Source: Nitrospirota bacterium (GTDB lineage: Bacteria; Nitrospirota; Thermodesulfovibrionia; Thermodesulfovibrionales; UBA1546). From it: a DNA stretch of 64,000 nt. Both the position numbers and the translations under genes were made by a program. Below the pieces are notes generated by a model. It saw only the letters and a program-made list of their open reading frames with translations, did no database searches and was not told the origin of the DNA. Shown here in pieces: positions 34,652 through 55,302 of this stretch (the first letter of the stretch is position 1; each line of letters starts with the position of its first letter). The stretch covers positions 1 to 64,000 of the forward strand of contig JACPZK010000022.1 of the NCBI GenBank assembly GCA_016195565.1, in the 5' to 3' direction.

Positions 34652-36748
34652 GTGGAACTAAGAAGATACTGGGAAATCATCCTTAAAAGGAAATGGGTCC
34701 TCGCTCTGGCCGTATTCATCGTGCCGCTTTTCGCCTTCATGTTCATGAAGATTGTATCTCCTGTATATTACAGCTACTCAAAGCTATGGATTAAATTGGA
34801 TACATTTCAGCAGAGCTTCATAAAGGATGTGCCTTCGGGGTTTGGCAAGTTCGATTTCACGGACAAAAGCAATGCCATGGGCACGATAGAGGAGATGCTG
34901 GAAAGCGACGGTGTCATTCTTAAAGTGATAACAGAGCTTGGATTAAAAGACAAAGACGGCGAATTCCTGACAAAGGACCATTTCGTGGACCCAAGCTCAA
35001 TCGGGATTATTCTTGGGAAAAAAGGGGTAAATATAGAGAATGTGGCCGATTCGGACACCTTCAAAATCATAGGGTATTCCGATAATCCAAAAGAGGCCCA
35101 GCAGATAGCTGCAGGTGTCATAAAGAGGTTCGTAGAGAACTTTTCAAAGGTGTACAGGGATACGGCTGAAAAAGCCATTGAAGTATTGAAGAAGAGGGTT
35201 TTGGAAGTGGGGAAAAATCTCTCTATAGCCGATAGGGATATGATAGATTATAAAATAAAGAACAAGATGTATGATTTGTCAAGTCAGAGGACAACGCTTA
35301 TTGCCGAGATATCGAACCTTGAATCAGAGCAGAACAAGACAGACAGAAATCTCGGCGGGAAAAAGGAAAGCCTCAAGTCAATAAAAACAGTCCTTTCCGC
35401 CCAACCCGAGTACAGGGAAGGCTCGACGACACTGGAGAAAAACCCTGTGGTAAGCGAAGCCAAAAAACAATTGCTTATCACGCAGCTCAATATGGCCAAA
35501 CTCAGTTCCGAAGTGACCACGGAGCATCCGGAGGTCAAGGCGTTGCAGCAGCAGGCCGATTCTGCGAAAGAGGTCATCTTAAAGGAGGTTGAGAAGACCT
35601 TCTCCACTCAGATCAAAGAGAGAAATAGCTATTATGATAATCTCATAGAAAAGTATGGTAATGCCGAGATCGACATAGTTACTGATGAAGCTATAAAGCA
35701 GAGATTGGAGTCGCAGATAAAAGAAAGAAAGGAGATGCTTAAATTACTCACCACGAAGGAAGACGAATTGAATCGTCTTTCAAGAGAGGTTGAAATTTTA
35801 AAAAATGCTTATAATTCACTGATGGCCAATCTTGAAACGGCCGTGAGCGCTAAAGAGTTGGATATTGCAAACGCTATAGTTATCCAGCCGCCGGTAGTTT
35901 TGCCGAATCTGTCCAACGTATACTTCCCGCCCGTGAAAAAGACCGTCCCTATGATTCTATCGGTGTTTATTGCAACATTCCTGGGCGTTAGCCTTATATT
36001 TTTGCTGGAGTACCTGGATGAAACCATAGAATCTTCTGAAGAAGTTAAAATGTATCTGGGGCAGGATGTAATAGAGATTTTGCCCGTTGCTAAGAAAAAG
36101 TATCTCGATATTAGCAAGGGAATTCAATCCAATCAGTTCACGGACGCCGTGTATAATTTGCTTTCAAAGATAAACCTTGCAAAAGGGCCAGGTAACTGGA
36201 AGGTTATTTCTATTGTAAGCCCTTCCAAAGGAGAAGGTAAATCGATAATAACCGCATGCATAGGGGCGCTCATGGGGGGGCAGGGTAAAAAGACCCTAAT
36301 GATCGATGGGAATCTTAGGGCGCCAGCTCTGCACAGGATTTTCAAACTCGATATTTCCTCAAGGCTTTCTGACTATATCTCTGGTAAAATTCCCGCCAGG
36401 GAAACGGTAATCCATACCCAGATTGAAAATCTCGACATCATAACCGATACAGCGGTCCATCCGCAGGGCTTTTTGTCTTCGGAGCGTTTCAAAGGGCTTA
36501 TAGACGATCTTTTGCCTGATTATGACGTTATTTTAATAGATACACCGCCCTATGAAATGGGTTCCGATACGCTGACACTTTCCAAATATGCCGATGTAGT
36601 CATCTTCATTGCCGCCAAGGGGAGAACTTCTCAAAAAAAGGCGCGGGAGTTTACGGAGGCGATGAAATTATCAGGAATCAATTCATTTGGCGTCGTCTTG
36701 AATCTACATAGGACCGCGATTTTTAAAAATCAACATAAGGGCGTATGA
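34652..36748 (+). CDS. Wzz/GumC chain-length determinant fused to a CpsD-type tyrosine autokinase
   Basis: This 698-residue inner-membrane polysaccharide co-polymerase has two membrane helices (residues ~15-35 and ~430-450) that bracket a long periplasmic coiled coil. The cytoplasmic BY-kinase domain has Walker A in VSPSKGEGKSIITA, A' in TLMIDGNLRAP and Walker B in YDVILIDTPPYEMG. The C-terminus (TAIFKNQHKGV) has no tyrosine cluster, unlike canonical BY-kinases such as Wzc. GTG 34652 follows GGAGGAAAA. It overlaps the next gene by ATGA. Confidence 0.92.
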   Translation: MELRRYWEIILKRKWVLALAVFIVPLFAFMFMKIVSPVYYSYSKLWIKLDTFQQSFIKDVPSGFGKFDFTDKSNAMGTIEEMLESDGVILKVITELGLKDKDGEFLTKDHFVDPSSIGIILGKKGVNIENVADSDTFKIIGYSDNPKEAQQIAAGVIKRFVENFSKVYRDTAEKAIEVLKKRVLEVGKNLSIADRDMIDYKIKNKMYDLSSQRTTLIAEISNLESEQNKTDRNLGGKKESLKSIKTVLSAQPEYREGSTTLEKNPVVSEAKKQLLITQLNMAKLSSEVTTEHPEVKALQQQADSAKEVILKEVEKTFSTQIKERNSYYDNLIEKYGNAEIDIVTDEAIKQRLESQIKERKEMLKLLTTKEDELNRLSREVEILKNAYNSLMANLETAVSAKELDIANAIVIQPPVVLPNLSNVYFPPVKKTVPMILSVFIATFLGVSLIFLLEYLDETIESSEEVKMYLGQDVIEILPVAKKKYLDISKGIQSNQFTDAVYNLLSKINLAKGPGNWKVISIVSPSKGEGKSIITACIGALMGGQGKKTLMIDGNLRAPALHRIFKLDISSRLSDYISGKIPARETVIHTQIENLDIITDTAVHPQGFLSSERFKGLIDDLLPDYDVILIDTPPYEMGSDTLTLSKYADVVIFIAAKGRTSQKKAREFTEAMKLSGINSFGVVLNLHRTAIFKNQHKGV

Positions 36749-37701
36749 GGTCTCTTAAAACGTTTATTGTCCTGCTGAAATGGTGGACATATTGGTATCC
36801 CTTTAGATTTTTTGTTCAGAAAATGCCGCTCTCGGTCAATTATGCGCTTGCAGACCTCTCTGTTCCGTTCATTTATTTCTTTTCAAAGAGAAAAAGGGTG
36901 ATGATAGAACGCGGACTCACGTCGATGTACAGGAGGGGTGATGGACCCCTTACAAAGGAGATAATCAAAAATACTTTCAGAAATTCGCTTTATTCTACAA
37001 TAGAGGTATTGCTGTATCCGAAAATGACAAAGGATATCAGCGAAAAGATAATAGATATCAAAGGGCTGGAAAATCTTGACAAAGCGTTGAAGTCCGGAAG
37101 GGGGGCTGTTTTGCTTCATGGGCATTTTGGTAATCCCCATATTATTATGCCCGGTATTGGCTACAGGGGATATAAACTGAACCAGCTCGGGAGCAGAAAC
37201 CCTCCGGAAAAAAGGGAAGGGCTGTTTAGCCGCATGTACAATAATCTGCGCACCACCGTGTACGAGAGCAAACTGAAATACAAAGAGAGCCTGCCGGTAA
37301 ATTTTATATATACAGACGCTTTTATTAGGGATGTTTTCAGAAGACTCAAGGATAACGAAATCATTGCTATAGGGATCGATGGCAGAGAGGGGAGCAAATC
37401 CGTGGTTATAGATTTCCTTGGTGGAAAAGCGCTTTTTTATACAGGAGCAATGAAGCTAATACTCAGAGCAAAACCGGTTGTCCTTCCCACATTCCATGTG
37501 AGAAATAAGAGGTCCCATACCATAATAATCGAAAAGCCTATGGATCTGGAGATTACGGGTGATGAAGAAAAAGATACTTGCGCAAATCTAAAAAAAATTT
37601 TAAATATTTTTGAAAATTACATGCATCGTTATCCTGAGCATTACGTTATGATATTCGGCTTAAAACAATCCATATTTGTTTCAGGGGAGAGCGCTTCGTG
37701 A
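36745..37701 (+). CDS. LpxL-like lysophospholipid/lipid A acyltransferase, copy 1 (altered HX4D/E)
   Basis: This 318-residue membrane-associated protein of the LpxL/HtrB family has an N-terminal hydrophobic segment. The motif region is GAVLLHGHFGNPHIIMPGIG, followed by IGIDGREGSKSVVIDFLGGK. In LpxL the pattern is HFGNWE, with a catalytic His and acidic residue five positions later; here that position is His. Two more homologues (39038-39970 and 43154-44107) share this loss. Its job may be to acylate a glycolipid, but the altered motif makes chemistry uncertain. Confidence 0.82.
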   Translation: MRSLKTFIVLLKWWTYWYPFRFFVQKMPLSVNYALADLSVPFIYFFSKRKRVMIERGLTSMYRRGDGPLTKEIIKNTFRNSLYSTIEVLLYPKMTKDISEKIIDIKGLENLDKALKSGRGAVLLHGHFGNPHIIMPGIGYRGYKLNQLGSRNPPEKREGLFSRMYNNLRTTVYESKLKYKESLPVNFIYTDAFIRDVFRRLKDNEIIAIGIDGREGSKSVVIDFLGGKALFYTGAMKLILRAKPVVLPTFHVRNKRSHTIIIEKPMDLEITGDEEKDTCANLKKILNIFENYMHRYPEHYVMIFGLKQSIFVSGESAS

Positions 37702-39041
37702 AAATATTGCTGATACAGGCTTATCTGGGAAGAAAAGAACATACAGGCCATATATTCCCGCTGGGGCTTTGCTATATCGCCACGGCTTTAAATGGGCACG
37801 ATGTCCGCATGATGGACCTTAATCTGTACGATGATCCTTATGGAGAACTTAAAAGGACTATCCTGGATTTCAGGCCGGAAATTGTCGGTATTTCCTTGAG
37901 GAATATAGATACCACGCAAAAAAAAGACATATTTTATTATTTTAAGACCGTGAGTCCTACGGTTAAGTTGGTAAAAGAGACTGATCCAAGTATAAGGGTC
38001 ATGATAGGCGGCGCCGGCTTTTCGATGTTTGCCGAGAAAATTATGGCGCAGATACCTGAACTTGATTTCGGCGTATACATGGAGGGAGACGAAAGCGTTC
38101 CTGATCTTGTGAAAAATATCGACAATCCGCATAAGGTCAAGGGTATTTTTTATCGGGATAAGGACGTTGTCTTATTTACAGGCCCAAGGCCGCTGCCTGA
38201 TGTCAGCCGCCTGCCCATGCCGAGAAGGGACTTTCTCGACATAAAACAATATCTTGATTCCCCCGCTAACAATATTGGAATCCAAACAAAGCGCGGCTGT
38301 CCTTTCAAATGCAGTTATTGTAGTTATCCTTTCTTGAACGGCCAGAGGGTGAGACAGCGCAGCCCGCAGAGCATTGTTGACGAAATTGAGTATCTGGTCA
38401 GGGAGTTTAATGTTAGGAAATTCATGTTTGCCGACAGCGTCTTTAACGTGCCTTCCGGGCACGCGGAGGCTATATGCAAGGAAATAATAAAAAGGGGCAT
38501 TAATGTCAGATGGAACGCATGGTTTGAGATTAAGAATTTCACCGAAGATCTTCTCAATCTCGCCATAGCTGCGGGGTGCAATAATATGGCTTTTTCCCCC
38601 GATGCGGCTTCGGATAAATCCCTAAAGGCCCTGGGGAAGCATATAACAGAGGCTGACATATACAGGACACTGAAAATAGCAAGGAAAGCAAAAGATGGCA
38701 TTTTCTGCTTTAACATCTTCTGCACGCCCCCGCAACAGGACTTTTGGGGATTTCTAAAGACCGTGAAGCTCTACCTTGCGGTAAACCTCTTGTTATTTGG
38801 CAGGGGAAGCGTTGGGGTCGGATGGATACGCATTGAGCCGGAAACTGGCATGCAGAGGATCGCCGTAGAGGAGGGGATGATAGAAGAGAATGACGACCTG
38901 CTTCCCCAGAATGAAAAAGGACTTGAAAGGCTTTTTTACAGTTGCCCTGTAACCAGGAGCTACGCGGATCCGTTTTTTAGCTTCTTAATTAACTTCAAGA
39001 AGTCGCTGAAGAAGTTTGTGATGCCCAATTTAATATTATGA
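37698..39041 (+). CDS. B12-binding-domain radical SAM protein, copy 1
   Basis: This 447-residue protein has an N-terminal cobalamin-binding-like domain (IFPLGLCYIATALNGHDVRM, GGAGFSMFAEKI). The radical SAM core has the [4Fe-4S] motif CPFKCSYCSYP, followed by DSVFNVPSGHAEAI. This class (as in BchE and many methylases) methylates unactivated carbons or builds rings using S-adenosylmethionine. GTG 37698 overlaps the previous stop. Placement between two acyltransferase genes suggests a lipid or acyl-chain substrate. Confidence 0.88.
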   Translation: MKILLIQAYLGRKEHTGHIFPLGLCYIATALNGHDVRMMDLNLYDDPYGELKRTILDFRPEIVGISLRNIDTTQKKDIFYYFKTVSPTVKLVKETDPSIRVMIGGAGFSMFAEKIMAQIPELDFGVYMEGDESVPDLVKNIDNPHKVKGIFYRDKDVVLFTGPRPLPDVSRLPMPRRDFLDIKQYLDSPANNIGIQTKRGCPFKCSYCSYPFLNGQRVRQRSPQSIVDEIEYLVREFNVRKFMFADSVFNVPSGHAEAICKEIIKRGINVRWNAWFEIKNFTEDLLNLAIAAGCNNMAFSPDAASDKSLKALGKHITEADIYRTLKIARKAKDGIFCFNIFCTPPQQDFWGFLKTVKLYLAVNLLLFGRGSVGVGWIRIEPETGMQRIAVEEGMIEENDDLLPQNEKGLERLFYSCPVTRSYADPFFSFLINFKKSLKKFVMPNLIL

Positions 39042-39970
39042 TAGTCCATGAGAGCTTTTACAGGGATGTCCTCAGATTGTTTGTATGGTATCCGCTCAGA
39101 TGGGTGATTACACTCCTTCCGTTAAGGTTAGCATTTATGGTTTTCAACTTGATGGGGGACATGCATTTCATGGTAGCGCGTGGGGAAAAAAGACGCGTTC
39201 TTCAAAATCTTAACTCTGCCTTTCAGGGAAGGATAAGTGACAGGGAGTTGTGGAATGTCGCGAGGAAATATTTCAGAAATCATTATGTAAACCAACTCCA
39301 GATATTTTTATTTCCGGGACTAAACCTGGACAGCATTGGGAAGTTCCATGCTTTTGAGGGTCTGTCAAATCTGAATAATGCGCTGAAAGGAAACAAGGGA
39401 TGCATACTCGTACATCCCCATTTCGGACCTGCCCAACTTCCGCTCTGTAATCTTGGGTTGTTAGGTTACCGGATGATGCAGCTGGGGCTTCCAACGGACG
39501 AGGGGCGTAGTTTTGTCGGAAGGAATGTCGCCTTCAGATTACGCTTAAAATACGAGGCTATGATACCGGCTAAGATAATTTCCGCCGAATCGTTCTTAAG
39601 GCCCGTCATGGAATGGCTCAACAAAAATAAAGTGCTGATGATCACTGGTGACGGGGCGGGCGGTGGAAAGTTCATCGGCAAGTTTATGCCGATGGAATTC
39701 TTGGGTACGAAACTCCTGATGCCGGCAGGCGCAGCGACACTCGCCTTTAAGACAGGGGCGCCTATATTGCCTATGTTTACTGTTATAAACAAGAACGGCT
39801 ATTACAAAACAATTATCTGCGAGCCTTTGAACAGTCAGGAGGAAGACGTTAAGGAAATGACGGTTGAAAAGTACATGGCCTGCTTTGCCAAAGAAATGGA
39901 GAGGTATATTTTAGCTTACCCGTACCTATGGCACTTCTGGGATGAGTGGGACAGCAGGCTTGCTAAATAA
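39038..39970 (+). CDS. LpxL-like acyltransferase, copy 2 (altered HX4D/E)
   Basis: This 310-residue homologue of the LpxL family has GCILVHPHFGPAQLPLCNLG where the HX4D/E motif belongs. The His is kept, but Gln takes the acid's place. Later conserved blocks are GDGAGGGKFIGKFMPMEFLG and LAFKTGAPILPMFT. It starts inside the radical SAM stop (ATGA). Confidence 0.8.
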   Translation: MIVHESFYRDVLRLFVWYPLRWVITLLPLRLAFMVFNLMGDMHFMVARGEKRRVLQNLNSAFQGRISDRELWNVARKYFRNHYVNQLQIFLFPGLNLDSIGKFHAFEGLSNLNNALKGNKGCILVHPHFGPAQLPLCNLGLLGYRMMQLGLPTDEGRSFVGRNVAFRLRLKYEAMIPAKIISAESFLRPVMEWLNKNKVLMITGDGAGGGKFIGKFMPMEFLGTKLLMPAGAATLAFKTGAPILPMFTVINKNGYYKTIICEPLNSQEEDVKEMTVEKYMACFAKEMERYILAYPYLWHFWDEWDSRLAK

Positions 39971-39981
39971 AACTAAAGCAT

Positions 39982-41451
39982 ATGGATCGGTCTAAAACTA
40001 TAGTAAAAAATACAGTATGGGGTATGGCCGCCAGGGCCATAGACGTGGCATCAAATTTCTTGCTCTTGGCCCTCGTTGCGCGTTATTTGGGGGTAGCAGA
40101 GTTCGGCGTTTATTCGTTCCTTATAGCCGTCATATGGACAGTTTTTCCTTTCCTTTTGATGGGCGGGCCAAGGATTTTGGCAAGGGACATCTCCCAGGAT
40201 AAGAAAAATGCCAGCGCTTTGATCGGCAGCGCAATAACACTAATTGGACTGCTGGGCATTCCAGCTATAGTCATAACCGCTGTCTATGTATTACTTTTTA
40301 ATCTTTCGCCGGACAGCGCAATCCTTGCCTTCGTCATTCTCCTGTCCATGCTTGCCATGGGCGCCACCAGAACGCTCAATTCTGTTTTTGTCGCCTTTGA
40401 AAGGATGCATTTTGAAACCATCATGTCAGTTTTTATTTCCCTTTCTTCCCTGTTATTTACCGCCGCCGCAATATATCTTGATTTAGGATTGAGATATATC
40501 TTCATTGGTATGCTTCTTAGCAACATTTCAAGCCTTGGTATAAGTATTTTCTTCTCCATGAGGCATTTCTCTGTAGTTCCCATGCTTGGTATAAAAAAAG
40601 ATATTATTTTGTACCTTTTGAGGGAGTCCGCGCCGATCGCCGTATCGCAGTTCCTTTTACAAATCTACCTTTATTCCGGCGTTTTTGTGCTTAAGCTTTT
40701 AAGCAGCAATTTTGATTTGGGCCTTTTCCAGGCTCCTTACAGGCTGATTACACGATTGCAGGTCATTCCGATGACCTTCGTCTTGGCTATGCTTCCGGTC
40801 ATCTCCCAGTTGGCAGCAAATGAGAGCGCCAGGGAAATCCTGAGGACAAAGGCTCTTTTTGTTTCCAAGATCCTCATTATTGTCAGTCTGCCAATAATGA
40901 TCTTCGGGTTCATCTTCTCAGAAAAAATCATTTACCTGCTGTTCGGTGCGGCATTTTCCAAATCCATAATTGCGCTTCAAATCCAAATACTGGGTCTGGG
41001 TCTGTTTTTTTTAAATACATTCTTTGAAATCCTTTTCATAAGCCTGAAAAAGCAGCGCTATCAGGTGGTGTTGACAGCCCTTGGGCTTTTTGTCAGCCTC
41101 GTTTTAAATTTCATCATGGTCCCGGACTATGGCTATATAGCGGCAAGCGCTGCTGTGCCTATTTCGCAGGCAGTGATATTCTTAGCCGGCCTCTATTACC
41201 TGTCTGACATATTCAATGTGTTCAGCTTTGTAAAGGTCTTATACAAACCAGCGCTCGCGGCGTGTGTTATCGTTCTTTTCCTTATCGCCTTCTCATGGAT
41301 TAATTATGCTATAGCGACCGGCGCGGTACTCTTGATATATCCTGTCATGCTATTTGCTTTCAAGGCGTTTTCTCAGGAGGAGATCGGGTTTTTAAAAAGA
41401 GCCGCAGGGATCAAGACCGGTTTAGGTGACAACAGCATAACCATACGGTAA
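39982..41451 (+). CDS. Polysaccharide flippase (Wzx/MATE-like, oligosaccharide flippase family)
   Basis: This is a 489-residue polytopic inner-membrane protein with about 12-14 helices throughout. It starts with the typical NTVWGMAARAIDVASNFLLL and RYLGVAEFGVYSFLIA. It should flip the lipid-linked repeat unit to the periplasm, where the O-antigen-ligase-like protein (45781-47298) or a polymerase acts. Confidence 0.9.
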   Translation: MDRSKTIVKNTVWGMAARAIDVASNFLLLALVARYLGVAEFGVYSFLIAVIWTVFPFLLMGGPRILARDISQDKKNASALIGSAITLIGLLGIPAIVITAVYVLLFNLSPDSAILAFVILLSMLAMGATRTLNSVFVAFERMHFETIMSVFISLSSLLFTAAAIYLDLGLRYIFIGMLLSNISSLGISIFFSMRHFSVVPMLGIKKDIILYLLRESAPIAVSQFLLQIYLYSGVFVLKLLSSNFDLGLFQAPYRLITRLQVIPMTFVLAMLPVISQLAANESAREILRTKALFVSKILIIVSLPIMIFGFIFSEKIIYLLFGAAFSKSIIALQIQILGLGLFFLNTFFEILFISLKKQRYQVVLTALGLFVSLVLNFIMVPDYGYIAASAAVPISQAVIFLAGLYYLSDIFNVFSFVKVLYKPALAACVIVLFLIAFSWINYAIATGAVLLIYPVMLFAFKAFSQEEIGFLKRAAGIKTGLGDNSITIR

Positions 41452-41480
41452 TGTGCATTCAATTATTACAGGGGGAATAA

Positions 41481-43157
41481 ATGAGAGAAAAGGTAATTGT
41501 CATCGGCCTTGACGGAGCCACATTCAACCTAATAAGACCGTGGGTCAGGGAGGGGAGACTCCCTGCGCTCGCAAGGCTCATGGAAGAGGGGTGTTACGGC
41601 GAGTTAATATCAACTCCTGACATGATGAGTCCATCTGCATGGACATCTTTTGCCACTGGCAAAAATCCGGGCAAGCACGGCCTTTATAATTTTCTCGATT
41701 TTGTGCCGAACACCCTTAAGCTCCACTACTATAGTTCTATAGACAGGGATGGAGAAACTCTTTGGGGACTTTTAAACAAGTCAGGAAAGAAGGCCGGGGT
41801 GCTTAATGTACCCATGACTTACCCAGCCGACACACTTGATGGCTTTATGATATCAGGCTGGAACGCTCCTACTGTCAAAAGCAAGGGGTTTTCACATCCC
41901 CCTGAGATGATAGATGAGATACTGAAAAAATTTGGGGGTTACCCTCTTTTCCCGACGGTTAAAAAGTATATGGTGGAGAATAAACCCTCTCTGGCGATAG
42001 AGGCAATCAAAAACAGTCTTGACGCGCATGCGAAGGTTTCTAAATATCTTATGGAAACCCGTGACTGGGACCTGCTGATAGCTTTTTTTATCGCGACAGA
42101 TCAGGTGCAGCATTATTTCTGGCACTACATGGATCCCCAACACCCTCTTCACGATCCTCATGCCGCTACAGAATGCCGTGACGCTATTTTTAACATTTAC
42201 GAGCGATGCGATCGCATCATATCCGAATTAATCGAAAAAATAGGAGAGGAAACGACGATAATAGTGATGTCCGATCATGGACATGGTCCCAACCACGGTG
42301 CGACCCAATACCTTCCTCTGTGGTTAAAAAAGATGCGCTTTGCCGTAGAGAACGAAAAATCATACTCTGTTAATTTACTGAGAACTATGCAAACCGCAGC
42401 GCTCAAGTCGATATATAATCAGATGAACAAGCATCTAAATATGCGTGTCAAAGGATTTCTCAACAGATTAGTACCGAATCTGAGGGATAAAGTTGAATCT
42501 ACTTGGCGGTTCTCTTCATATGACTGGGCGAGAACTAAAGTTTTCTTCCATTATGAGCCGAGGATAAATCTAAAAGGAAGGGAGCCTTTCGGCATCATTT
42601 CCCATGGTGAAGAATACGAGCAATTGAGAAATAATCTTATTGAGAAACTCTACGAGTGCAGAGATGTAAAAACAGGGCAGAGGGTTATAGAGAAAGTTTT
42701 CAAAGGTGAGGAAGTATATCATGGAAAGCATGTTTCTAATGCCCCTGACATCGTTATATGGTGGAAAGAGGGGGTAGTGCTTTCAGGCTTGGCTTGTCTC
42801 AGAGAGGACGGGGTTGAGGTCAGGGTGACAGAAAAATACGTCGATGATCCGCGAACCGGCAACCATTTTCCACATGGAATTTTCTTAATAAAGGGCAAGC
42901 ATATAAGGAAGGGAAAAGAGATCAAAGGCGCTGAAATCATAGATTTGGCGCCAACTATTCTCCATTTGATGAACTCTCCCGTTCCTAACGACATTGACGG
43001 CAAGGTCCTGACCGAGGTTTTTGACGAGGACTTCCTTAAAAAAAATCCTGTGAAGTTCACCAAAGGGCGTAGCGATAGTGATAAAAAAGACGGCTATTCT
43101 AAGTCAGACGAGGACAATGTCCACGAGAACCTCAAGGCGCTGGGTTACATAGAATGA
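41481..43157 (+). CDS. Alkaline-phosphatase superfamily phosphodiesterase, copy 2
   Basis: This 558-residue enzyme has VIGLDGATFNLIRPW (metal Asp), MSPSAWTSFATGKNPGKHGL (nucleophile region), FIATDQVQHYFWH (metal ligands) and VMSDHGHGPNHGATQYL (distal site). No signal peptide is seen. Similar proteins sit in polysaccharide and glycolipid loci of anaerobes, where they may add or remove phospho-linked groups. A paralogue lies at 23056-24330. Its stop overlaps the following acyltransferase start (ATGA), so the two products are likely made in equal amounts. Confidence 0.85.
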   Translation: MREKVIVIGLDGATFNLIRPWVREGRLPALARLMEEGCYGELISTPDMMSPSAWTSFATGKNPGKHGLYNFLDFVPNTLKLHYYSSIDRDGETLWGLLNKSGKKAGVLNVPMTYPADTLDGFMISGWNAPTVKSKGFSHPPEMIDEILKKFGGYPLFPTVKKYMVENKPSLAIEAIKNSLDAHAKVSKYLMETRDWDLLIAFFIATDQVQHYFWHYMDPQHPLHDPHAATECRDAIFNIYERCDRIISELIEKIGEETTIIVMSDHGHGPNHGATQYLPLWLKKMRFAVENEKSYSVNLLRTMQTAALKSIYNQMNKHLNMRVKGFLNRLVPNLRDKVESTWRFSSYDWARTKVFFHYEPRINLKGREPFGIISHGEEYEQLRNNLIEKLYECRDVKTGQRVIEKVFKGEEVYHGKHVSNAPDIVIWWKEGVVLSGLACLREDGVEVRVTEKYVDDPRTGNHFPHGIFLIKGKHIRKGKEIKGAEIIDLAPTILHLMNSPVPNDIDGKVLTEVFDEDFLKKNPVKFTKGRSDSDKKDGYSKSDEDNVHENLKALGYIE

Positions 43158-44107
43158 AGCGATTTATGAGGGCAGTTAAACACACAATTATATGGTTCGT
43201 ATGGGTTGTCCTTCGCCCCATTCTTAGGTTTATTCCTTTAAAAATCATGTACAGAGCGGCATCCATAAGCGCAACGGTTGCATACCTTTGCGCCACGAAA
43301 AAGAGAAAAACGCTTATTAGCGAGCTTAAGAAAATCTTTAAGGACGGATCTAAAAAACAACTGCAAAGTATGGCGCATAAGAGTTTCATTATTTATTACA
43401 AAAGACAGGTTGAGAATGTAATCTTCGGTGATTTTACCAAAGAAAGGCTTGAACGGGTCGTTTCTATCGAAGGATTGGAATATCTGAATCAGGCAGTCAA
43501 GGAGGGCAAAGGGGCTATAATACTTTTATCCCATTTCGGCTCCCACCTTCTTGTCCCGCTCGCCCTTGCTTATAGAGGGTATCTCGTAAACCAGCTTACA
43601 GGCGGCCCGGGAGTTGTCAAACAATTGGACTCACCAGTATACGAAAGGGTGGTCGAGATAAGAAGAAAGGATTCGAGCAGTTTGCCTATCACATTTTTAA
43701 GCGCGCACCAATCTCTTCATGCTGCCCTTAAAGCTCTTAAAAGGAACGAACTGGTAGCCATAGCGATGGACGGCAGGGTTGGAAAAAAATGGATCAAGGT
43801 CAATATGTTCAATATGGAGACAACACTGTCTCCGGGACCTGTAAGGATAGCATTGAAGACGGGCGCACCTATCATTCCGACCTTTATCATCAGGAACAGG
43901 GATAATACCCATAAGCTGATTCTCGAGTCGCCCATAGAGCTTGATTATTTTAAGGACGAGGAAAAGACGATTGCGGTCAATACTCAGAAGCTCGCAAGAA
44001 GTTTTGAATCATATATCCTCAGATTCCCATGTCATTTTGGGATGATCTTGCAGATAATGAGAGAACGGGTTCAAAATGGAATTCTGGAATCTTCCATACT
44101 GCCTTAA
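43154..44107 (+). CDS. LpxL-like acyltransferase, copy 3 (altered HX4D/E)
   Basis: This 317-residue member of the LpxL family has an N-terminal membrane-proximal helix. The motif region GAIILLSHFGSHLLVPLALA keeps the His but has Leu in place of the acid. AMDGRVGKKWIKV and RIALKTGAPIIPTFIIRNRD match the family's later blocks. It is translationally coupled to the phosphodiesterase gene. Confidence 0.8.
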   Translation: MKRFMRAVKHTIIWFVWVVLRPILRFIPLKIMYRAASISATVAYLCATKKRKTLISELKKIFKDGSKKQLQSMAHKSFIIYYKRQVENVIFGDFTKERLERVVSIEGLEYLNQAVKEGKGAIILLSHFGSHLLVPLALAYRGYLVNQLTGGPGVVKQLDSPVYERVVEIRRKDSSSLPITFLSAHQSLHAALKALKRNELVAIAMDGRVGKKWIKVNMFNMETTLSPGPVRIALKTGAPIIPTFIIRNRDNTHKLILESPIELDYFKDEEKTIAVNTQKLARSFESYILRFPCHFGMILQIMRERVQNGILESSILP

Positions 44108-47298: not shown

Positions 47299-48053
47299 GA
47301 TACTTTGACGAAATTGAGAAGAGGAAAAAAGAGGCCAGCCTGAGCAGGCACCCGAAGTTCCTGCAGTCTATTTTTAACTCCTTAAGCAGCGTGCATGATT
47401 ATTATGACGAATGTCTTGCCCCGCTCATAAGGAAGGACATTAAGGTGCTCGATGCGGGGTGCGGTAAAAAGGGTATCATGAACAAGTACAGGGGTAAGAC
47501 TGCCTATACCGTGGGCATGGACATGCAGTTGAGCGCTATTAAGCAAAATGCCGCTATGGACTACAAGGTCGTCTCAGGCGTTTACAGCATTCCGTTCAAG
47601 GAGGAGACATTTGATGTGATAGTCTCGCAGTGGGTCGTTGAGCACCTCTCGGAGCCCAAAAAGGCATTCAGCGAATTTAGGAATGTGTTGAAGAATAACG
47701 GGAGCCTGATACTCGTAACGAACAGCGTATATAACCCGCTCATGTTCTTTAATGCGGTGATGCCAGAAGGTATAAGGGACAGGATTAAAAAGAGGGCGCT
47801 TCCGCCGGAGATAGAGGAGGACACGTTCCCGACATACTATAAATGCAATTCGGTCGGCAAGCTCGATAAGGCATTGAGGGAGTTGGGGTTTGAGAAGAAG
47901 TTTACAGGCTATGTAGGGGACCCTTCGTTCTTCGTATTTTCGAAGTTCATCTTCCCTTTGACAGTGGTATATGAGCTTGCAACCTCTTTCAGGATATTGA
48001 GGCCATTGAAGATGCATGTGATTGTCCATTATGTTAAGAGAGACAAAAGTTAA
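47295..48053 (+). CDS. Class-I SAM-dependent methyltransferase
   Basis: This 252-residue Methyltransf_11-type enzyme has motif I in KVLDAGCGKKGIMNKY, motif II/III in FDVIVSQWVVEHLSEPKKAF and the post-motif LKNNGSLILVTNS. The substrate is unknown, probably a sugar or lipid of the locus. TTG 47295 overlaps the ligase stop as TTGA. Confidence 0.88.
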   Translation: MRYFDEIEKRKKEASLSRHPKFLQSIFNSLSSVHDYYDECLAPLIRKDIKVLDAGCGKKGIMNKYRGKTAYTVGMDMQLSAIKQNAAMDYKVVSGVYSIPFKEETFDVIVSQWVVEHLSEPKKAFSEFRNVLKNNGSLILVTNSVYNPLMFFNAVMPEGIRDRIKKRALPPEIEEDTFPTYYKCNSVGKLDKALRELGFEKKFTGYVGDPSFFVFSKFIFPLTVVYELATSFRILRPLKMHVIVHYVKRDKS

Positions 48054-48065
48054 AGAGGCTAATGC

Positions 48066-49577
48066 ATGAAGATAACTTTCATCTCGCCGTATCCGGATAT
48101 AACTGCTTTCGGCATAAGAAATATCTCTTCTTACGTCAAGGAACACGGCCACAAGACACAGATAATCTTTTTGCCTGACCCTTGCGGTGATGATATCGCC
48201 GATACGAAGAGATACAACGATAGTGTCCTTGAGGGGATAATCCCTTTATGCGCTGATGCCGATATAATCGGCGTAACGCTCATGACGAACTTCTATCAGA
48301 GCGCTATCGAGATCACCGAGAAGATAAAGAGGCTTAAAAAGCCTGTCATTTGGGGCGGCGTGCACGCGACTGTAATGCCTGAGCAGTGCCTCATGCACGC
48401 GGATATGGTATGTATCGGTGATGGGGAAGAGGTTATGCTTGAGCTTCTCAACAGGATGGAGAGGAGGGAGGACTATGACGGTGTCAGGGGCCTCTGCGTA
48501 AAGCGGGATGGAAATATCATAAGGAACCCTCTTGAGAGGCTCTCGGATGATCTCGATAAATACCCCATACCCGATTACAGCATGGAGAACCATTTTGTTA
48601 TGCATAACGGCGCTATCACTGCGATGACGACGGATTTAATGAGGACCATGATGGAGGAAAGTTACATTTCGAATTTCATATCAAAGTGCGGTTACCAAAC
48701 CATGTCAGGCAGGGGCTGTCCCCATAAGTGCTCCTACTGTGTAAACGACACGCTTAAGAACATGTACGGAGGCCACGATTACCTCAGGTGGAGGAGTCCG
48801 GAGCATGTTGTGGAGGAGTTACTTTTTGTAAAGAAGACCATGCCGTTTGTGGGGCACATTTGGTTCTCGGACGACTCGTTTTTTTCAAGAAACCTTGAGA
48901 AGACAAAAGAATTCTGCAAGCTTTATAAAGAGAAGATAGGGCTTCCTTTCTTCGCTCTCGGAAGCCCTCTGACAATAAACGAGGAGAAGATGGCCCTTCT
49001 TGTGGACACGGGCTTAAGGGGTGTACAGATGGGTATTCAGACAGGGAGCAGCCATGTGCAGGCGTTATTCAATCGCAAGAATATGTCTAATGAGCGGGTC
49101 TTAAAGGCCATGAACATAATTAACAAATACAAGGACAGGCTCGAACCCCCGCATTATGACTTCATACTCGATACACCATACGAGACAGACAGGGACAAGG
49201 TAGAGACCCTACGCTTTATCTCCAGGATACCGAAGCCTTATAATTTGCAGACATTCTCGCTTGTGCTTTATCCGGGCACACAGATGTACGATATGGCAAA
49301 GAAGGATGGGTTTATAAATGATGAGGAAAAGGAGATACTCAATAGGAGCTACACAAGGCGCAGCTTCGGGTATTTCAATGTGCTCTTCTCGCTCATTAAA
49401 AAGGGATGGCTTCCTGTCTGGACGGTCCGGATACTTATAAGTGGGCCGGTTCTGTTGTTTCTTAATAATAAATTCATGGTGCCTGTGATAAAGGCCGCTG
49501 ATATGTTCGCGGGTGCGCTTTACCGGACACTCAACGGCCTCTGTGCGCCCAAAGTAAAAAGGCTTAAGAAAACATAG
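48066..49577 (+). CDS. B12-binding-domain radical SAM protein, copy 2
   Basis: This is a 503-residue protein. The N-terminal cobalamin-type domain (GHKTQIIFLPDPCGDDIADT, IWGGVHATVMPEQCLMHADM) is followed by the radical SAM core with CPHKCSYCVNDTLKNMYGG. GVQMGIQTGSSHVQALFNRK is the later conserved block. No function-defining residues are known for this subgroup. Confidence 0.88.
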   Translation: MKITFISPYPDITAFGIRNISSYVKEHGHKTQIIFLPDPCGDDIADTKRYNDSVLEGIIPLCADADIIGVTLMTNFYQSAIEITEKIKRLKKPVIWGGVHATVMPEQCLMHADMVCIGDGEEVMLELLNRMERREDYDGVRGLCVKRDGNIIRNPLERLSDDLDKYPIPDYSMENHFVMHNGAITAMTTDLMRTMMEESYISNFISKCGYQTMSGRGCPHKCSYCVNDTLKNMYGGHDYLRWRSPEHVVEELLFVKKTMPFVGHIWFSDDSFFSRNLEKTKEFCKLYKEKIGLPFFALGSPLTINEEKMALLVDTGLRGVQMGIQTGSSHVQALFNRKNMSNERVLKAMNIINKYKDRLEPPHYDFILDTPYETDRDKVETLRFISRIPKPYNLQTFSLVLYPGTQMYDMAKKDGFINDEEKEILNRSYTRRSFGYFNVLFSLIKKGWLPVWTVRILISGPVLLFLNNKFMVPVIKAADMFAGALYRTLNGLCAPKVKRLKKT

Positions 49578-49614
49578 AAGATACCATCACAGGAAAGATA
49601 CCAGGACCGAGAGT

Positions 49615-50802
49615 TTGTTCTACAAAATAATTAACAAAAAGAAACGGGTGGCAACCATGATAGCGGATGTAATCGGTTATGCGCTCTGGACGCCTGCGAG
49701 GATATTGAGGAAAGATTCGCCTCCTCGGAAAGAGGAGGTTAAGGAAATACTCGTTGTGCGCACCGCTTACATAGGCGATGTAATAATGACGCTCCCGATG
49801 CTCAAGCCCTTAAAAGAGTTTTATCAGGGCTCACAGATAACGTTTTTGACCGCAAACGCCGCGAAGGACCTCTTTAAAGGCAACCCGTATGTGGATGATG
49901 TCATTACTTATGACGCTTTCTGGTTTTATGAAAAATCCGAGACGTTCGGGGATTTTTTAAAGAGGTTGAGGAATAGAAGGTTTGATCTGGTAATAGAGGC
50001 GAGGGGCGATATTAGAGACATCCTTCTTATAGCATATCTCTGCAGGGCAAGGCATAGGGTTAGTTATAAAGTAGCAGGAGGAGGGTTTCTTTTAACGGGG
50101 ATTGTCCCTTATGAGAAAATAAAACACAAGGTAGAGTACCATCTTGACATTGTAAGATTTTTAGGAGCCGAAACAGGTAAATTTGCGTGGGATTTGTATT
50201 TAACCGCGGAAGAAAGGAACTTCGGCAAGGCCTTATTAACTGCTCAGGGAATTGCCGATTCAGACACCGTCATAGGCATCCATCCAGGAGGCAGGAAAGG
50301 CCTGAAGTGCTGGTCCGCCCGGAAATACGCAGAGGTTGCTGACTGGATAATATCAAAATATAATGCTAAAGTTATTTTTACGGGTTCAGGGGAAGAAATA
50401 AAATTGATTGAAGACATTATGGGGAAAATGAGCGCCAAAGCAGTCAGTCTTACCGGCAAAACCGACTTGCGGATTCTTGCAAGCCTGCTGAAAAGATTTA
50501 ATCTCTTTATATGCAATGACACCGCTCCCCTTCATATTGCCTCTGCCATGAAGACGCCGACAGTTGCTATTTTTGGTCCATCTAAAAGCAATGAGACAGG
50601 CCCCTATGGCAATATCCACAGGGTAGTTGAAAAAGATTTTCCATGCAGATACACCTGCGATGAAGATGTCTGTAATCATAGGGTGCATAATGAATGTATG
50701 ACGGCTATAACTACTGATGATGTTTGTGAGGCTGTTAAGGATATTATGAATGAAATAGCTGATAAGGGTCTGAAGTTGCCTGAAAAAATATTGAAAGGAT
50801 GA
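49615..50802 (+). CDS. Glycosyltransferase family 9 (heptosyltransferase-like)
   Basis: This 395-residue GT-B enzyme has the N-domain signature LVVRTAYIGDVIMTLPML and the donor-binding blocks GIHPGGRKGLKCWSARKYAE and CNDTAPLHIASAMKTPTVAI. Members transfer heptose or related sugars to LPS core. TTG 49615 is the longest start; ATG 49658 behind GGTGG is an alternative that would remove 14 residues. The stop overlaps the deacetylase-like gene (ATGA). Confidence 0.9.
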   Translation: MFYKIINKKKRVATMIADVIGYALWTPARILRKDSPPRKEEVKEILVVRTAYIGDVIMTLPMLKPLKEFYQGSQITFLTANAAKDLFKGNPYVDDVITYDAFWFYEKSETFGDFLKRLRNRRFDLVIEARGDIRDILLIAYLCRARHRVSYKVAGGGFLLTGIVPYEKIKHKVEYHLDIVRFLGAETGKFAWDLYLTAEERNFGKALLTAQGIADSDTVIGIHPGGRKGLKCWSARKYAEVADWIISKYNAKVIFTGSGEEIKLIEDIMGKMSAKAVSLTGKTDLRILASLLKRFNLFICNDTAPLHIASAMKTPTVAIFGPSKSNETGPYGNIHRVVEKDFPCRYTCDEDVCNHRVHNECMTAITTDDVCEAVKDIMNEIADKGLKLPEKILKG

Positions 50803-51611
50803 AAAGCGCTAAAAAGCATGAAAGTTTCTCAGCCCCCTTCTCCACTTTTTTTGTAATACATTTTGAGGTTGGCGGAGATACAAGACGCCTTGAATATCAA
50901 AATACCTTCTGGCCTGCAACTGTTGATCTTATTAAATTAGCAGACCGGTATGATGCAAAGCTGACCCTGCAATTTACGCCGCAATGGGCTGAATACATAC
51001 TGAATGACAGATACAAATTCAATTTATTCAAGGGATGGCAGAGACATGGGCACGAAGCCGGGCTTCATCACCACGGTTATGATCACCGCGACTGGGACGG
51101 ATATACAAACAGGCGGGGGAAAGAAAATAATTCCTCATATCGCGGAAATGTTACGGACATGATAAATACTGTAAATGAACTTATTCACCCGTATCAGATT
51201 TTGACAGGGACCATAACTGATGAAGCGCATGATTACCCTGACGGCATTAAATACGACACACAAGGAATAAAAATTCGTCATTCGAGGACAAGGCCAAAGA
51301 ACGTTACACTTAACGGCAAAAATGTCATTCAGACGGGAATGTCTATTTTATCTGATGCGAAAAATATTAAAGAGCTTAAGAAGGAATATCATAAATCTGC
51401 TGATAATGAAATCTTTGGGGTCGTTACCCATGAAATAGATTTTGAGAATAGTCCTGAAATCATAAAGGAATGGTTCAGGTTCGTGAAATATAGAGACAAT
51501 CGGATTCAGACCGTGAGCGAAATAATTTCTAACTACCGGAAAGATTATAATATTGAATGCTGTGACAAGCCTTTGACTTTTTCAAAAGATGTCACCGGCA
51601 TTAGGGTATGA
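50799..51611 (+). CDS. Polysaccharide deacetylase-like (NodB-fold) protein
   Basis: This 270-residue protein is predicted to adopt the glycoside hydrolase/deacetylase beta-barrel. TLQFTPQWAEYI is followed by RHGHEAGLHHHGYDHRDW, a His-rich metal site in the place of the NodB H-x3-H motif. FFVIHFEVGGDTRR resembles the first strand but has Glu where NodB proteins have Asp-Asp. It may deacetylate a sugar, but the departure from the canonical motif leaves this tentative. Confidence 0.6.
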   Translation: MKSAKKHESFSAPFSTFFVIHFEVGGDTRRLEYQNTFWPATVDLIKLADRYDAKLTLQFTPQWAEYILNDRYKFNLFKGWQRHGHEAGLHHHGYDHRDWDGYTNRRGKENNSSYRGNVTDMINTVNELIHPYQILTGTITDEAHDYPDGIKYDTQGIKIRHSRTRPKNVTLNGKNVIQTGMSILSDAKNIKELKKEYHKSADNEIFGVVTHEIDFENSPEIIKEWFRFVKYRDNRIQTVSEIISNYRKDYNIECCDKPLTFSKDVTGIRV

Positions 51612-52864
51612 TTTGGCAAATGGCTTTCAAACTGAACATTATAACGGCTTACTCAGCAAAAGAAATTAAGGAGAGGCTCTTTTTGTCTCTTCAAGAATAT
51701 CATGAGCTGCTTCCTGCATCAAAGACATCAAAAATATTGCTTAAGCCAAACCTTAACGCCAACATGAACGCTCTTACAGGAAACACAACTGATTTGAGGC
51801 TTCTTGCAGCGGTCATTGAATACCTCAAAGTTAATGGATATAAAAATATTGCAATAGGGGAAGGCACTAACAGCGGTTATTACAGAAATAATATCAGCGT
51901 CATTTCCCGGCTTAAAATAGATGAACTGGCAAAATATTATGGCGTTAAGGCAATTGATTTTAATTTCGCGGAACCGGTTTATATTGCTTTTGAAAATGGA
52001 GTCAAAGCAGGTATTGCAAAAGATTGCGCAGAGGCGGATTTTATTATCAATATGCCTAAACTCAAAACTCATTTTGAAGTCGGAATGAGTGTGTGCCTTA
52101 AAAACCTGATGGGCTGCCTTGTGGGTCAGGAAAACAAGAAAAAGACACACCAGAGTCTGGCGCGGAATATCTTAAATATAAATGAGCATTTAAAGCCAAA
52201 TTTTCATATAGTTGACGGCCTGATAGCCATGGAAGGACTCGGGCCTACAAGGGGCAAACCTAAAAAAATGGGGATTATTATTTTAGGAGCTAACCCCTAT
52301 CTCATAGACCTGTTATGTGCAAAAATTGCCAATTTTGATTACCGCTTAATCACCACATTAAAACTGGCTGAAGACAAAGGCCTTATAACCAAAGACTATC
52401 ACGAATTCATACAAAGTCAGGACATCAATGACTTAATTAAAGAGTTTGAAAAACCAAAGGCAAATTTCTTCGCCTCTTTTATACACAGTCCTAAAAGGCA
52501 GAAGTATTTTCTGGCTGTCCGCAACACAAAATTTTTTACCTATCTGGCAGCAACCGAGTTATTTGGCAAACTGCTTTTTCTTTCCGGACTTAGGCAGGAT
52601 AATTTTATTAAGGAGGAAATGTCATTTGAAGGTTTTTCTTTTGACAAGGGGCGTTGTACAAAAGGCTGTACAAAATGCAAAGACTACTGCCCTGTGGGAT
52701 TAGAGCTGCCTGAAGGGCTTGCAGAGCACCGTAATAATGGATGCATAGGCTGTCTATATTGTTTCTTAGTTTGCCCTACAAAGGCTATTGAGTTTGGAGG
52801 AAAGCTTGGCTTTCTGACAGAACAGATCAGACAATATGACGATATAACAAGAAAGGTTGCGTAA
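51608..52864 (+). CDS. DUF362 protein with C-terminal 2x[4Fe-4S] ferredoxin domain
   Basis: This is a 418-residue protein. Residues ~40-300 match DUF362 (ILLKPNLNANMNALTGNTTD, FIINMPKLKTHFEVGMSVCL, KNLMGCLVGQENKK). The last 70 carry two cluster-binding sets (CTKGCTKCKDYCPVG and CIGCLYCFLVCPTKAI). DUF362 proteins are redox proteins of unknown reaction. Here it lies between two coupled genes of the polysaccharide locus and could supply electrons to the neighbouring radical SAM enzyme. Confidence 0.85.
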   Translation: MIWQMAFKLNIITAYSAKEIKERLFLSLQEYHELLPASKTSKILLKPNLNANMNALTGNTTDLRLLAAVIEYLKVNGYKNIAIGEGTNSGYYRNNISVISRLKIDELAKYYGVKAIDFNFAEPVYIAFENGVKAGIAKDCAEADFIINMPKLKTHFEVGMSVCLKNLMGCLVGQENKKKTHQSLARNILNINEHLKPNFHIVDGLIAMEGLGPTRGKPKKMGIIILGANPYLIDLLCAKIANFDYRLITTLKLAEDKGLITKDYHEFIQSQDINDLIKEFEKPKANFFASFIHSPKRQKYFLAVRNTKFFTYLAATELFGKLLFLSGLRQDNFIKEEMSFEGFSFDKGRCTKGCTKCKDYCPVGLELPEGLAEHRNNGCIGCLYCFLVCPTKAIEFGGKLGFLTEQIRQYDDITRKVA

Positions 52865-54322
52865 ATGAAAATTCTATTGCTTAATCCGCCGTTTTTGAAA
52901 AAATTTTCAAGGCCCCAGAGGAGTCCTGCGGTTACAAAGAGCGGGACCCTTTACTTTCCCATGTGGCTTGCTTATGCCGCAGGCGTCTTAATGGAAAATG
53001 GATTTGAAGTTGAACTGATTGATGCGCCTGCTGACGATTACAGCATGGAAGATGTTGCTGAGAAAGCTAAAAAACTCCAGCCGGATATTATAGTTATTGA
53101 CACAAGCACTCCCAGCATTTATAACGATACATCTATAGCAGGCAAATTAAAGGAGATATGCCCTTCGTCTTTCATAGCCCTTGTCGGCACACATGTATCC
53201 GCGCTTCCTGAGGAAACACTGAATTTAAATAATAAGATTGATGCAATTGCACGGCATGAGTACGACTATACACTGTTAGACCTTGCCAAAACACTTGAAA
53301 AAGGCGGAGACTTGAATAATGTCAAGGGGATAAGTTTTAGAAGCGGTAAAGGAATAACGCATATTCCTGACAGGTCATATATAGAAAACTTGGATGAACT
53401 GCCGTTTGTAAGCCGGGTCTACAAAAAATTCCTAAAAATAGAAAACTACTTTAATCCGAACGCCCTTTATCCAATGGTAACGATTACAACAAGCAGGGGA
53501 TGTCCTTTTAAATGCACCTTTTGCGTCTACCCTCAAACGCTGATGGGCAGCGGCTTTCGAACGAGGAGCGTTACGAATGTCGTCGACGAAATAGAATATA
53601 TCGTGGAAAATTTCCCCCAAACAAAGGCGATCTTTTTTGAGGATGATACACTTACTGTCAACAAAAATAGATGCATTGAATTGTCGGAGCGGATAATAAA
53701 GAAAAAGATAAAAATATCATGGACTGCTAATGCCAGGGTCGGGCTTGATTTTGAGACAATGAAGATAATGAAAGAGGCGGGATGCAGGTCATTCTGCGTC
53801 GGCTTTGAAAGCGGGAGCCAGATGATCCTCGACAACATGAAAAAGAATATTAAACGTGAGAAAATGTTTGAATTTATGAAAAATGCAAAAAAGGCGGGCA
53901 TCCTTATTCACGGCTGTTTTATGGCCGGTCTGCCAGGCGAGACAAAAGAGACAATGAAACAAACCCTTGACCTTGCCAAACGCCTTAATCCCGATACAAT
54001 GCAGTTTTATCCTGTGATGGTCTATCCCGGAACCGAGGCTTACCATTGGTATAAAGACAGGGGATACCTTATCACGGAAGACTTTTCCAAATGGCTCACC
54101 CCCGGCGGCTTGCATAACACCGTAATTAAAACACAGGAATTGTCACCCGGTGAGATGGTAAAATTCTGCGATGACGCGAGAAGGAAATTTTATCTCAGGC
54201 CCGCGTATCTTTTTTACAAGATAAGGCAGATGGTCTTTTCCCCGAGGGAGATCAGAAGGACCCTCAAGTCCGCAAAGACATTTTTAAAATATCTCTTCAG
54301 AGGCTCCGATATTACGGAGTAA
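52865..54322 (+). CDS. B12-binding-domain radical SAM protein, copy 3
   Basis: This 485-residue protein has cobalamin-type domain elements (YFPMWLAYAAGVLMENGFEV, ALVGTHVSALPEETL) and the radical SAM core with SRGCPFKCTFCVYPQ. IFFEDDTLTVNKNRCIELSE and GIL-HGCFMAGLPGETKET follow. It begins directly after the DUF362 stop. Three such proteins in one locus suggest several methylations or rearrangements of the product. Confidence 0.9.
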   Translation: MKILLLNPPFLKKFSRPQRSPAVTKSGTLYFPMWLAYAAGVLMENGFEVELIDAPADDYSMEDVAEKAKKLQPDIIVIDTSTPSIYNDTSIAGKLKEICPSSFIALVGTHVSALPEETLNLNNKIDAIARHEYDYTLLDLAKTLEKGGDLNNVKGISFRSGKGITHIPDRSYIENLDELPFVSRVYKKFLKIENYFNPNALYPMVTITTSRGCPFKCTFCVYPQTLMGSGFRTRSVTNVVDEIEYIVENFPQTKAIFFEDDTLTVNKNRCIELSERIIKKKIKISWTANARVGLDFETMKIMKEAGCRSFCVGFESGSQMILDNMKKNIKREKMFEFMKNAKKAGILIHGCFMAGLPGETKETMKQTLDLAKRLNPDTMQFYPVMVYPGTEAYHWYKDRGYLITEDFSKWLTPGGLHNTVIKTQELSPGEMVKFCDDARRKFYLRPAYLFYKIRQMVFSPREIRRTLKSAKTFLKYLFRGSDITE

Positions 54323-54324
54323 AA

Positions 54325-55302
54325 ATGATACTGTACTCGGTCATAATTCCAGCTTATAATGCAGATGGTACGATTGGGAAATGTCTTGAATCTTTAATGA
54401 ATCAGTCTGTCCCGAAGGAGGCTTACGAAATAATAGTGCTTGACGACGGGTCAACGGACAGCACCGCTGAAAAAGCAAAAAAGTTTTCCGTAAGATATTT
54501 TTTCCAGACAAATCAGGGTCCTGCTACAGCAAGAAACGCAGGCGCCAAGGAGGCTAAGGGAGAGATAATACTTTTTACGGATTCTGACTGCATCCCGGGA
54601 AAAAACTGGATAGAAAAAATGGCCGTGCCCTTCAATAATCCTGAGGTTATGGCAGTCAAAGGAGCATATAAAACAGAGCAAAAAACACTGACAGCGCGGT
54701 TTGCGCAGATAGAATTTGAAGAACGATTCAATATGCTGAAAAAAACTGAATCTATTGATATGGTAGATACATATTCTGCAGGTTACAGGAAATCGGTTTT
54801 TATTTCATTAGGCGGCTTTGACCCGTCTTTTCCTGTTGCAAATAATGAAGATACGGAACTTTCATACAAAATGTCTCGGTCGGGCTATAAAATGGTTTTC
54901 AATCCTGACGCAATTGTTTATCATTTGAACCACCCCGATTCTGTAAAGAGATATGCCCGTCTTAAATTCTGGAGGGGATACTGGAGAATGGTTGTCTATA
55001 AAAGATATCCAGACAAGATGTTGAAGGATTCATATACTCCTCAGAGCTTAAAATTACAAATACTTTTTTTATTTTTATTCTTAACATGCTTGCCTCTTAC
55101 ATGGTTACTGCCAAATCTGATGTTTTATCCTGTAATCCTCTGTCTGATTTTATTTATTCTGTCAACCCTCCCATTCATCAGGCTGGCGCTTACAAGAGAT
55201 TTAATTGTCGCCCTGCTATCGCCATTTTTTCTATCGGTGAGGGCAGTTTCGCTGGGCACAGGCACTTTCTGGGCGATACTATCACAAAAAAATCTAAAAT
55301 GA
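54325..55302 (+). CDS. Glycosyltransferase family 2, membrane-associated
   Basis: This 325-residue GT-A enzyme has SVIIPAYNADGTIGKCLESL, VLDDGSTDSTAEK and the metal-binding DxD in LFTDSDCIPGKNW. The acceptor/catalytic region is VANNEDTELSYKMSRSGYKM. Two C-terminal membrane helices anchor it. It uses an NDP-sugar donor on the cytoplasmic face. The stop overlaps the molybdoenzyme start (ATGA). Confidence 0.92.
   Translation: MILYSVIIPAYNADGTIGKCLESLMNQSVPKEAYEIIVLDDGSTDSTAEKAKKFSVRYFFQTNQGPATARNAGAKEAKGEIILFTDSDCIPGKNWIEKMAVPFNNPEVMAVKGAYKTEQKTLTARFAQIEFEERFNMLKKTESIDMVDTYSAGYRKSVFISLGGFDPSFPVANNEDTELSYKMSRSGYKMVFNPDAIVYHLNHPDSVKRYARLKFWRGYWRMVVYKRYPDKMLKDSYTPQSLKLQILFLFLFLTCLPLTWLLPNLMFYPVILCLILFILSTLPFIRLALTRDLIVALLSPFFLSVRAVSLGTGTFWAILSQKNLK

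Follow-up and report, generated by a model that had tools for sequence, protein, structure and literature searches.

A 64,000-nucleotide window (the whole stretch of DNA analysed) of contig C22, from a Nitrospirota genome of 2.3 Mb and 99% completeness, carries a plus-strand operon (~29465 to ~57422) in which genes for surface polysaccharide synthesis stand among genes for acyltransferases, glycosyltransferases and B12-binding radical S-adenosylmethionine (SAM) enzymes. The operon consists of two conserved, separable modules and a variable polysaccharide part, and is not one unit. On balance, we think that it directs the synthesis of a surface polysaccharide that is attached to, or carries, a conserved acylated glycolipid or glycan unit made by an oxygen-sensitive pathway. 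An earlier sequence-only reading of the window had proposed a single glycolipid locus with a gene order to be sought elsewhere. The same gene set was indeed found again in tens of other genomes, in the modular form just described and not as the whole operon.

Module A comprises a GT9 glycosyltransferase (49615-50802; PF01075, 1.9e-33; 22 orthologs), a DUF362 protein with two [4Fe-4S] ferredoxin-like clusters that served as the module marker (51608-52864; PF04015, 1.5e-43), the HpnJ-like B12-binding radical SAM enzyme rS3 (52865-54322; PF04055 and PF02310; 26 orthologs), a GT2 glycosyltransferase (54325-55302; PF00535, 9e-37; 15 orthologs) and, as the last gene of the operon, an acetylene-hydratase-like molybdenum/tungsten (Mo/W) bis-pyranopterin guanine dinucleotide enzyme (Mop; 55299-57422). 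Module B comprises two further B12-binding radical SAM enzymes, rS1 (37698-39041) and rS2 (48066-49577; 18 orthologs), both matching PF04055 and PF02310, the acyltransferases AT1 (36745-37701; PF03279, 1.1e-23) and AT2 (39038-39970; PF03279, 4.7e-22; 19 orthologs), and PDE, a cytoplasmic protein of the phosphodiesterase/alkaline-phosphatase fold that has no transmembrane segment (41481-43157; PF01663, 7e-39).

Relatives of the operon were located by alignment of rS1, and every window gene was then scored against those loci. Median identity to the window protein was 74% for the Mo/W enzyme, 66.5% for rS3, 62% for DUF362, 61% for GT2 and 49% for GT9 in module A, and 54% for rS2, 44% for AT2, 42% for rS1 and ~33% for PDE and AT1 in module B. 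For the polysaccharide machinery it was 31% (Wzx), 27% (Wzy) and 24% (Wzz-kinase). Within a module, the genes co-evolve: correlations of pairwise distances were mostly 0.65-0.86 within module A (GT9-rS3, 0.47) and 0.63-0.92 within module B, and those of the modules with Wzy and Wzz-kinase were weak.

Relatives of rS1 occur in many phyla, and each of modules A and B was found in Nitrospirota, Schekmanbacteria, deltaproteobacteria and Nitrospinaceae, and partly in Planctomycetota. Two deltaproteobacterial metagenome-assembled genomes (MAGs) from groundwater (L073 and L075) have the run PDE-AT1-rS2-rS2-rS1-...-AT2-...-GT9-DUF362-rS3-GT2-Mop; a Nitrospinaceae MAG (L109) has a similar run without Mop, and a planctomycetotal locus (L079) has it in part. 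Marichromatium gracile DSM 203, a cultured purple sulfur bacterium, has module B and GT9 without DUF362, its genes running PDE-AT1-rS2-rS2-rS1-GT9-AT2. The first two genes of the operon, for an acyl-CoA ligase and an IolM-type dehydrogenase, recur as a pair at 66-74% identity in Schekmanbacteria (L061) and a Hainich MAG (L063); the ligase orthologs (66-67%) adjoin Wza, IolM and rS1 in L061-L063, and the IolM orthologs are 71-74% identical. In most of six loci, GT9 is preceded by a member of family c11 (for example, L073 14310-15197), which by eye looks alpha/beta-hydrolase-like. The window has no member of this family; there, GT9 is followed by a possible deacetylase.

The DUF362-ferredoxin marker was detected in 18 of 396 Nitrospirota genomes, belonging to five families. 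In the first 198 genomes, strong rS1 matches and DUF362 fell in exactly the same eight, and rS1 was present in half (5/10) of the further DUF362 genomes. When genomes were instead picked by rS1, 18 of 25 encoded DUF362, at 46-74% identity. It should also be noted that the genomes in these co-occurrence counts are mostly not independent lineages. Neither the radical SAM nor the DUF362 marker was present in genomes of the same genus. The magnetotactic Nitrospirota of the Magnetobacteriaceae carry GT9-DUF362-rS3-GT2 as a stand-alone four-gene operon amid unrelated genes, and in three of their loci (L044, L045 and L046) rS2-rS1-GT2-AT2 is located apart from module A. This module B locus ends with a TPR protein and, as judged by eye, an MlaA/VacJ-like protein, a possible link to lipid trafficking. 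In a tree of rS3 and DUF362, the window groups with a deltaproteobacterium (split support 97) rather than with members of its own family, which suggests horizontal transfer of module A.

Few cobalamin radical SAM enzymes are known that do not methylate, among them BchE, OxsB, HpnJ, PbsB and ladderane synthase (PMC13142503). The closest match to rS3 among these is HpnJ, but rS3 scored 444.7-445.2 bits against the HpnJ model TIGR03471 (cut-off 577.6). True HpnJ occurs in 48 Nitrospirota genomes at 612-754 bits, rS3 proteins reach at most 445, and there are no intermediates; one genome (G172) has true HpnJ and rS3 together. The two types are 37-41% identical, with 71 common invariant residues and 23 type-specific positions. 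Because rS3 scores under the cut-off and no squalene-hopene cyclase (PF13243) was found in the 99% complete genome, we assign rS3, from its sequence, to a distinct sister clade of HpnJ and not to HpnJ itself. On the same two grounds we rejected the hopanoid pathway. The CxxxCxxC motif of rS3 is kept in 26 of 26 orthologs and its B12-binding domain is present; its closest solved relative is AprD4, a radical dehydratase. The carbon methylation suggested by the sequence-only reading is not supported, since rS3, the most conserved of the radical SAM enzymes, is nearest to a ring-rearranging enzyme.

The nearest described system to module A is HpnI-HpnK-HpnJ, which makes the cyclitol ether of bacteriohopanetetrol (PMC12583986). 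Both combine a glycosyltransferase with a B12 radical SAM enzyme of the HpnJ superfamily acting on a membrane lipid, and the likeness may extend to a possible deacetylase in the window copy, a candidate that is not conserved elsewhere. In contrast, the window adds DUF362-ferredoxin, GT9 and the Mo/W enzyme, in a genome without hopene cyclase. For rS1, in which CxxxCxxC is kept in 25 of 25 orthologs, the best NCBIfam model was BzaD (TIGR04385), of anaerobic B12 lower-ligand synthesis, yet at 298.6 bits under a cut-off of 450. The BzaD-like loci of Eubacterium and Acetobacterium form a separate group of 33-37% identity that lacks the window's acyltransferase, glycosyltransferase and DUF362 genes, and lower-ligand synthesis was therefore rejected. 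At least 12 further B12-binding radical SAM genes lie within ~105 kb of contig C31 of the same genome (~46-151 kb; L205-L210). This cluster holds the nearest paralog of rS3 (49%), adjoining GT4, DUF218, GT2, an NTP-transferase/HAD fusion and a GHMP kinase.

Among 21 orthologs of the DUF362 protein, eight cysteines never vary. The structure model of this protein (predicted local distance difference test, pLDDT, 81) gave LarA-type nickel-pincer racemases as all of the top 16 fold matches, at low TM-scores of 0.27-0.38, and DUF362 and LarA are placed in the same Pfam clan, CL0471 (PMC11770544). Unlike LarA, the DUF362 protein has two [4Fe-4S] clusters appended. LarC, as a sign of a nickel-pincer requirement, occurs both in genomes that have the module and in genomes that do not, and was hence non-informative. 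The Mo/W enzyme (707 residues) matched acetylene hydratase best among PDB entries, over its full length (2e7z, 379 bits), and the metal-ligand cysteine is conserved. However, His19, invariant in seven orthologs, stands where acetylene hydratase has D13, the catalytic aspartate beside its [4Fe-4S] cluster that follows the second cluster cysteine, and the genomic context here is glycan synthesis.

Acyltransferases are encoded three times in the operon; the third, AT3 (43154-44107; PF03279, 2.3e-29), has the same invariant His-Asp pair as the others. This pair, a histidine and a distant aspartate (H127 and D212 in AT1), is invariant across 35 members, and the acid of the HX4D/E motif is missing in nearly all of them and replaced in all three window proteins, in AT1 by histidine. 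The family profile matches the LpxM and PatA structures. Best scores against LpxL/LpxM models were 52-93 bits under a cut-off of 248, which, with the replaced acid, speaks against membership in that family; we instead place the proteins, by sequence comparison, in the PatA/VexE/LpxM superfamily. A His-acid pair is needed in PatA and VexE, and active VexE likewise departs from HX4D/E (PMC9597891). VexE, which makes the glycolipid anchor of the Vi antigen (PMC9597891), is also an acyltransferase of the LpxL/PatA superfamily encoded within a polysaccharide locus, and in it, as in the window proteins, HX4D/E is degenerate, the histidine is kept and the acid is distant. The systems differ in that VexE has a TPR domain and serves an ABC-transporter capsule, whereas the three acyltransferases of the window have a single domain each and are encoded together with Wzx/Wzy machinery and radical SAM enzymes.

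We consider the following pathway the most likely. The sugar-phosphate transferase would prime the undecaprenyl carrier, and GT2 and GT9 would add sugars. A glycosyl residue may then be rearranged by rS3, by ring contraction of the HpnJ type to a cyclitol or by a related radical dehydration or cyclisation. DUF362-ferredoxin could give electrons, isomerise an intermediate, or both, and the acetylene-hydratase-like enzyme could carry out a further hydration or redox step. The radical SAM enzymes rS1 and rS2 may modify either the sugar or the acyl portion. The PatA/VexE-like acyltransferases would place fatty acyl chains, possibly activated by the acyl-CoA ligase, on sugar hydroxyls. Wzx would flip the product and Wzy polymerise it, Wzz-kinase and Wza would govern its length and its export, and trimming would fall to the secreted glycosidase-like protein. 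The lipid-side unit would thus be the invariant part and the polymer the strain-specific one. We infer that the enzymes share one pathway, that its product is of this class and is coupled to the polysaccharide, and that rS3 rearranges a sugar ring; what the analysis showed is the gene content, the linkage, the co-evolution and the retention of catalytic residues.

An acylated, radically modified surface glycolipid, as the sequence-only reading had it, remains the best class of explanation, because the enzyme genes recur with polysaccharide genes and no described counterpart was found. In line with its statement that such a product was not described from standard loci, the searchable open-licence literature yielded no description of such a cassette or locus. 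The frame, a Wzy-type locus with glycolipid enzymes, is already known, and the enzyme set and its conservation across phyla appear to be new. A bolder version, which we consider unlikely, is a non-hopanoid, anaerobe-specific membrane glycolipid that would serve as a common anchor for unrelated surface polysaccharides across phyla. Its sugar would be contracted to a cyclitol by an HpnJ sister enzyme, PatA/VexE-like enzymes would acylate the lipid, and the acetylene-hydratase-like Mo/W enzyme would complete it. An inositol lipid as the common product is not supported, as the PF01658 synthase does not follow the modules.

Several observations weigh against a link of both modules to polysaccharide. 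The coupling is drawn from operon structure and shared loci. The distance correlations ignore species phylogeny, PDE and AT1 of module B are conserved no better than Wzx, and 5 of the 18 Nitrospirota genomes with DUF362, some of them incomplete, have no strong rS1 match. In the Magnetobacteriaceae loci, Mop is absent from module A and the modules do not adjoin Wzx/Wzy, so they may act elsewhere, for example on the core of lipopolysaccharide (LPS). It is a serious, if doubtful, alternative that the target modified by modules A and B is LPS (lipid A-core) and not a polysaccharide anchor, with exopolysaccharide (EPS) genes merely co-located in the operon. GT9 matches LPS heptosyltransferase models, the acyltransferases are PF03279 relatives of LpxL, module A stands alone in the Magnetobacteriaceae, whose module B locus ends in the MlaA/VacJ-like protein, and lpxC is present in this genome and in 19 of the 20 genomes searched. 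The presence of lpxC also led us to reject a replacement of lipid A. However, the near-universal lpxC contrasts with the patchy modules, which same-genus genomes with LPS genes do not have; the modules adjoin Wzx, Wzy, Wza and Wzz-kinase in many genomes, and the acyltransferases, nearly all without the HX4D/E acid, score far under the LpxL/LpxM cut-offs.

Separate products, with module A making a small soluble or lipid metabolite, the polysaccharide genes making ordinary EPS and the operon serving only co-regulation, seem decidedly unlikely. While the modules are separable, lie away from EPS genes in some genomes and, for module A, have a tree that departs from species relationships, the tight gene overlaps and a linkage with Wzx/Wzy/Wza that recurs in distant phyla speak against separate products, as do the two glycosyltransferases of module A and the spread of acyltransferases among polysaccharide genes. 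We give very little credence to the reading that this is an ordinary Wzy-dependent EPS locus whose accessory enzymes are lineage-specific and have no chemistry in common. The Wzx/Wzy/Wza/Wzz-kinase and priming transferase genes are a standard set, but the accessory enzymes are the best-conserved parts across phyla, ahead of these EPS genes, and they co-evolve. Our preferred interpretation, a polysaccharide joined to a conserved acylated glycolipid or glycan unit, suggests a widely distributed and undescribed surface glycolipid confined to anaerobes.

Profile matches show that the Wzy-dependent EPS/capsule set of the operon is complete: a polyprenyl-phosphate sugar-phosphate transferase (PGPT; 32313-33740; TIGR03025, 395 bits, above cut-off), a Wza-type SLBB export protein (33812-34567; PF02563/PF22461), a Wzz chain-length protein fused to a BY-kinase-like domain (34652-36748; PF02706; TIGR01007, 113 bits, above cut-off), the flippase Wzx (39982-41451; PF01943) and a Wzy_C polymerase/ligase of putative role (45781-47298; PF04932, 1.7e-10). 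The operon starts with the acyl-CoA ligase (AMP-binding; 29465-30973; PF00501, 2.5e-84) and the IolM-type zinc dehydrogenase (30970-32121; NF041097, 460.1 bits, above its cut-off of 450). A class I methyltransferase (47295-48053; PF08241) is 46-55% identical in two loci. All genes named by the sequence-only reading lie on the plus strand where it had placed them, and most of its labels are backed by Pfam or NCBIfam. The secreted glycosidase-like protein (44403-45773) had no Pfam match at E<=0.001, yet its NEP motif aligned with glycosidase-like genes at the equivalent position in other loci (hhalign, 95%). The window-specific NodB-like deacetylase candidate (50799-51611) is assigned by motif only: it had no Pfam match at E<=0.001, PF01522 included, no credible PDB match and no ortholog in any compared locus, and its structure model was of low confidence (pLDDT 34.8).

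The span of 34652-55302 first given for the operon was too narrow, with genes missed on both sides. Upstream, the ligase (29465), IolM-type dehydrogenase (30970), sugar-phosphate transferase (32313) and Wza (33812) were added; downstream, it was one gene short, as the Mo/W enzyme overlaps the GT2 stop by ATGA. Within that span, at least nine ATGA, GTGA or TTGA overlaps had been reported; we counted seven (36745, 37698, 39038, 43154, 47295, 50799 and 51608) and one exact abutment (52864/52865). The remaining gaps are 2-37 bp, with the exception of 295 bp ahead of 44403. The IolM-type gene reads as having a rare ATA start (30970-30973), preceded by GGAGG and overlapping the ligase stop; the standard open reading frame (ORF) call shortens it by 54 codons. 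A scan for promoters and terminators gave signals no better than those in shuffled sequence. A REP-like inverted repeat was seen by eye upstream of the operon (28920-29000), and a small ORF just 5' of the operon start (29101-29400, plus strand) is PilZ-like on a sequence reading only. On the minus strand, 57530-63996 holds a nitrogenase-type cluster (a fused 890-residue Oxidored_nitro protein, a Nitro_FeMo-Co protein, P-II, a radical SAM protein and a ThiF protein), and, at 12552-20756, three genes for ammonium transporters lie next to NrfA/NrfH-type cytochromes.

Each non-methylating cobalamin radical SAM enzyme defines new chemistry. Here, genomic context ties a sister clade of HpnJ to two glycosyltransferases, a DUF362 protein and a relative of acetylene hydratase, giving a joint pathway that can be tested. 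The two-speed locus would also offer a route to a lipid shared by magnetotactic Nitrospirota, groundwater deltaproteobacteria, Schekmanbacteria and Nitrospinaceae, which may have value as a biomarker.

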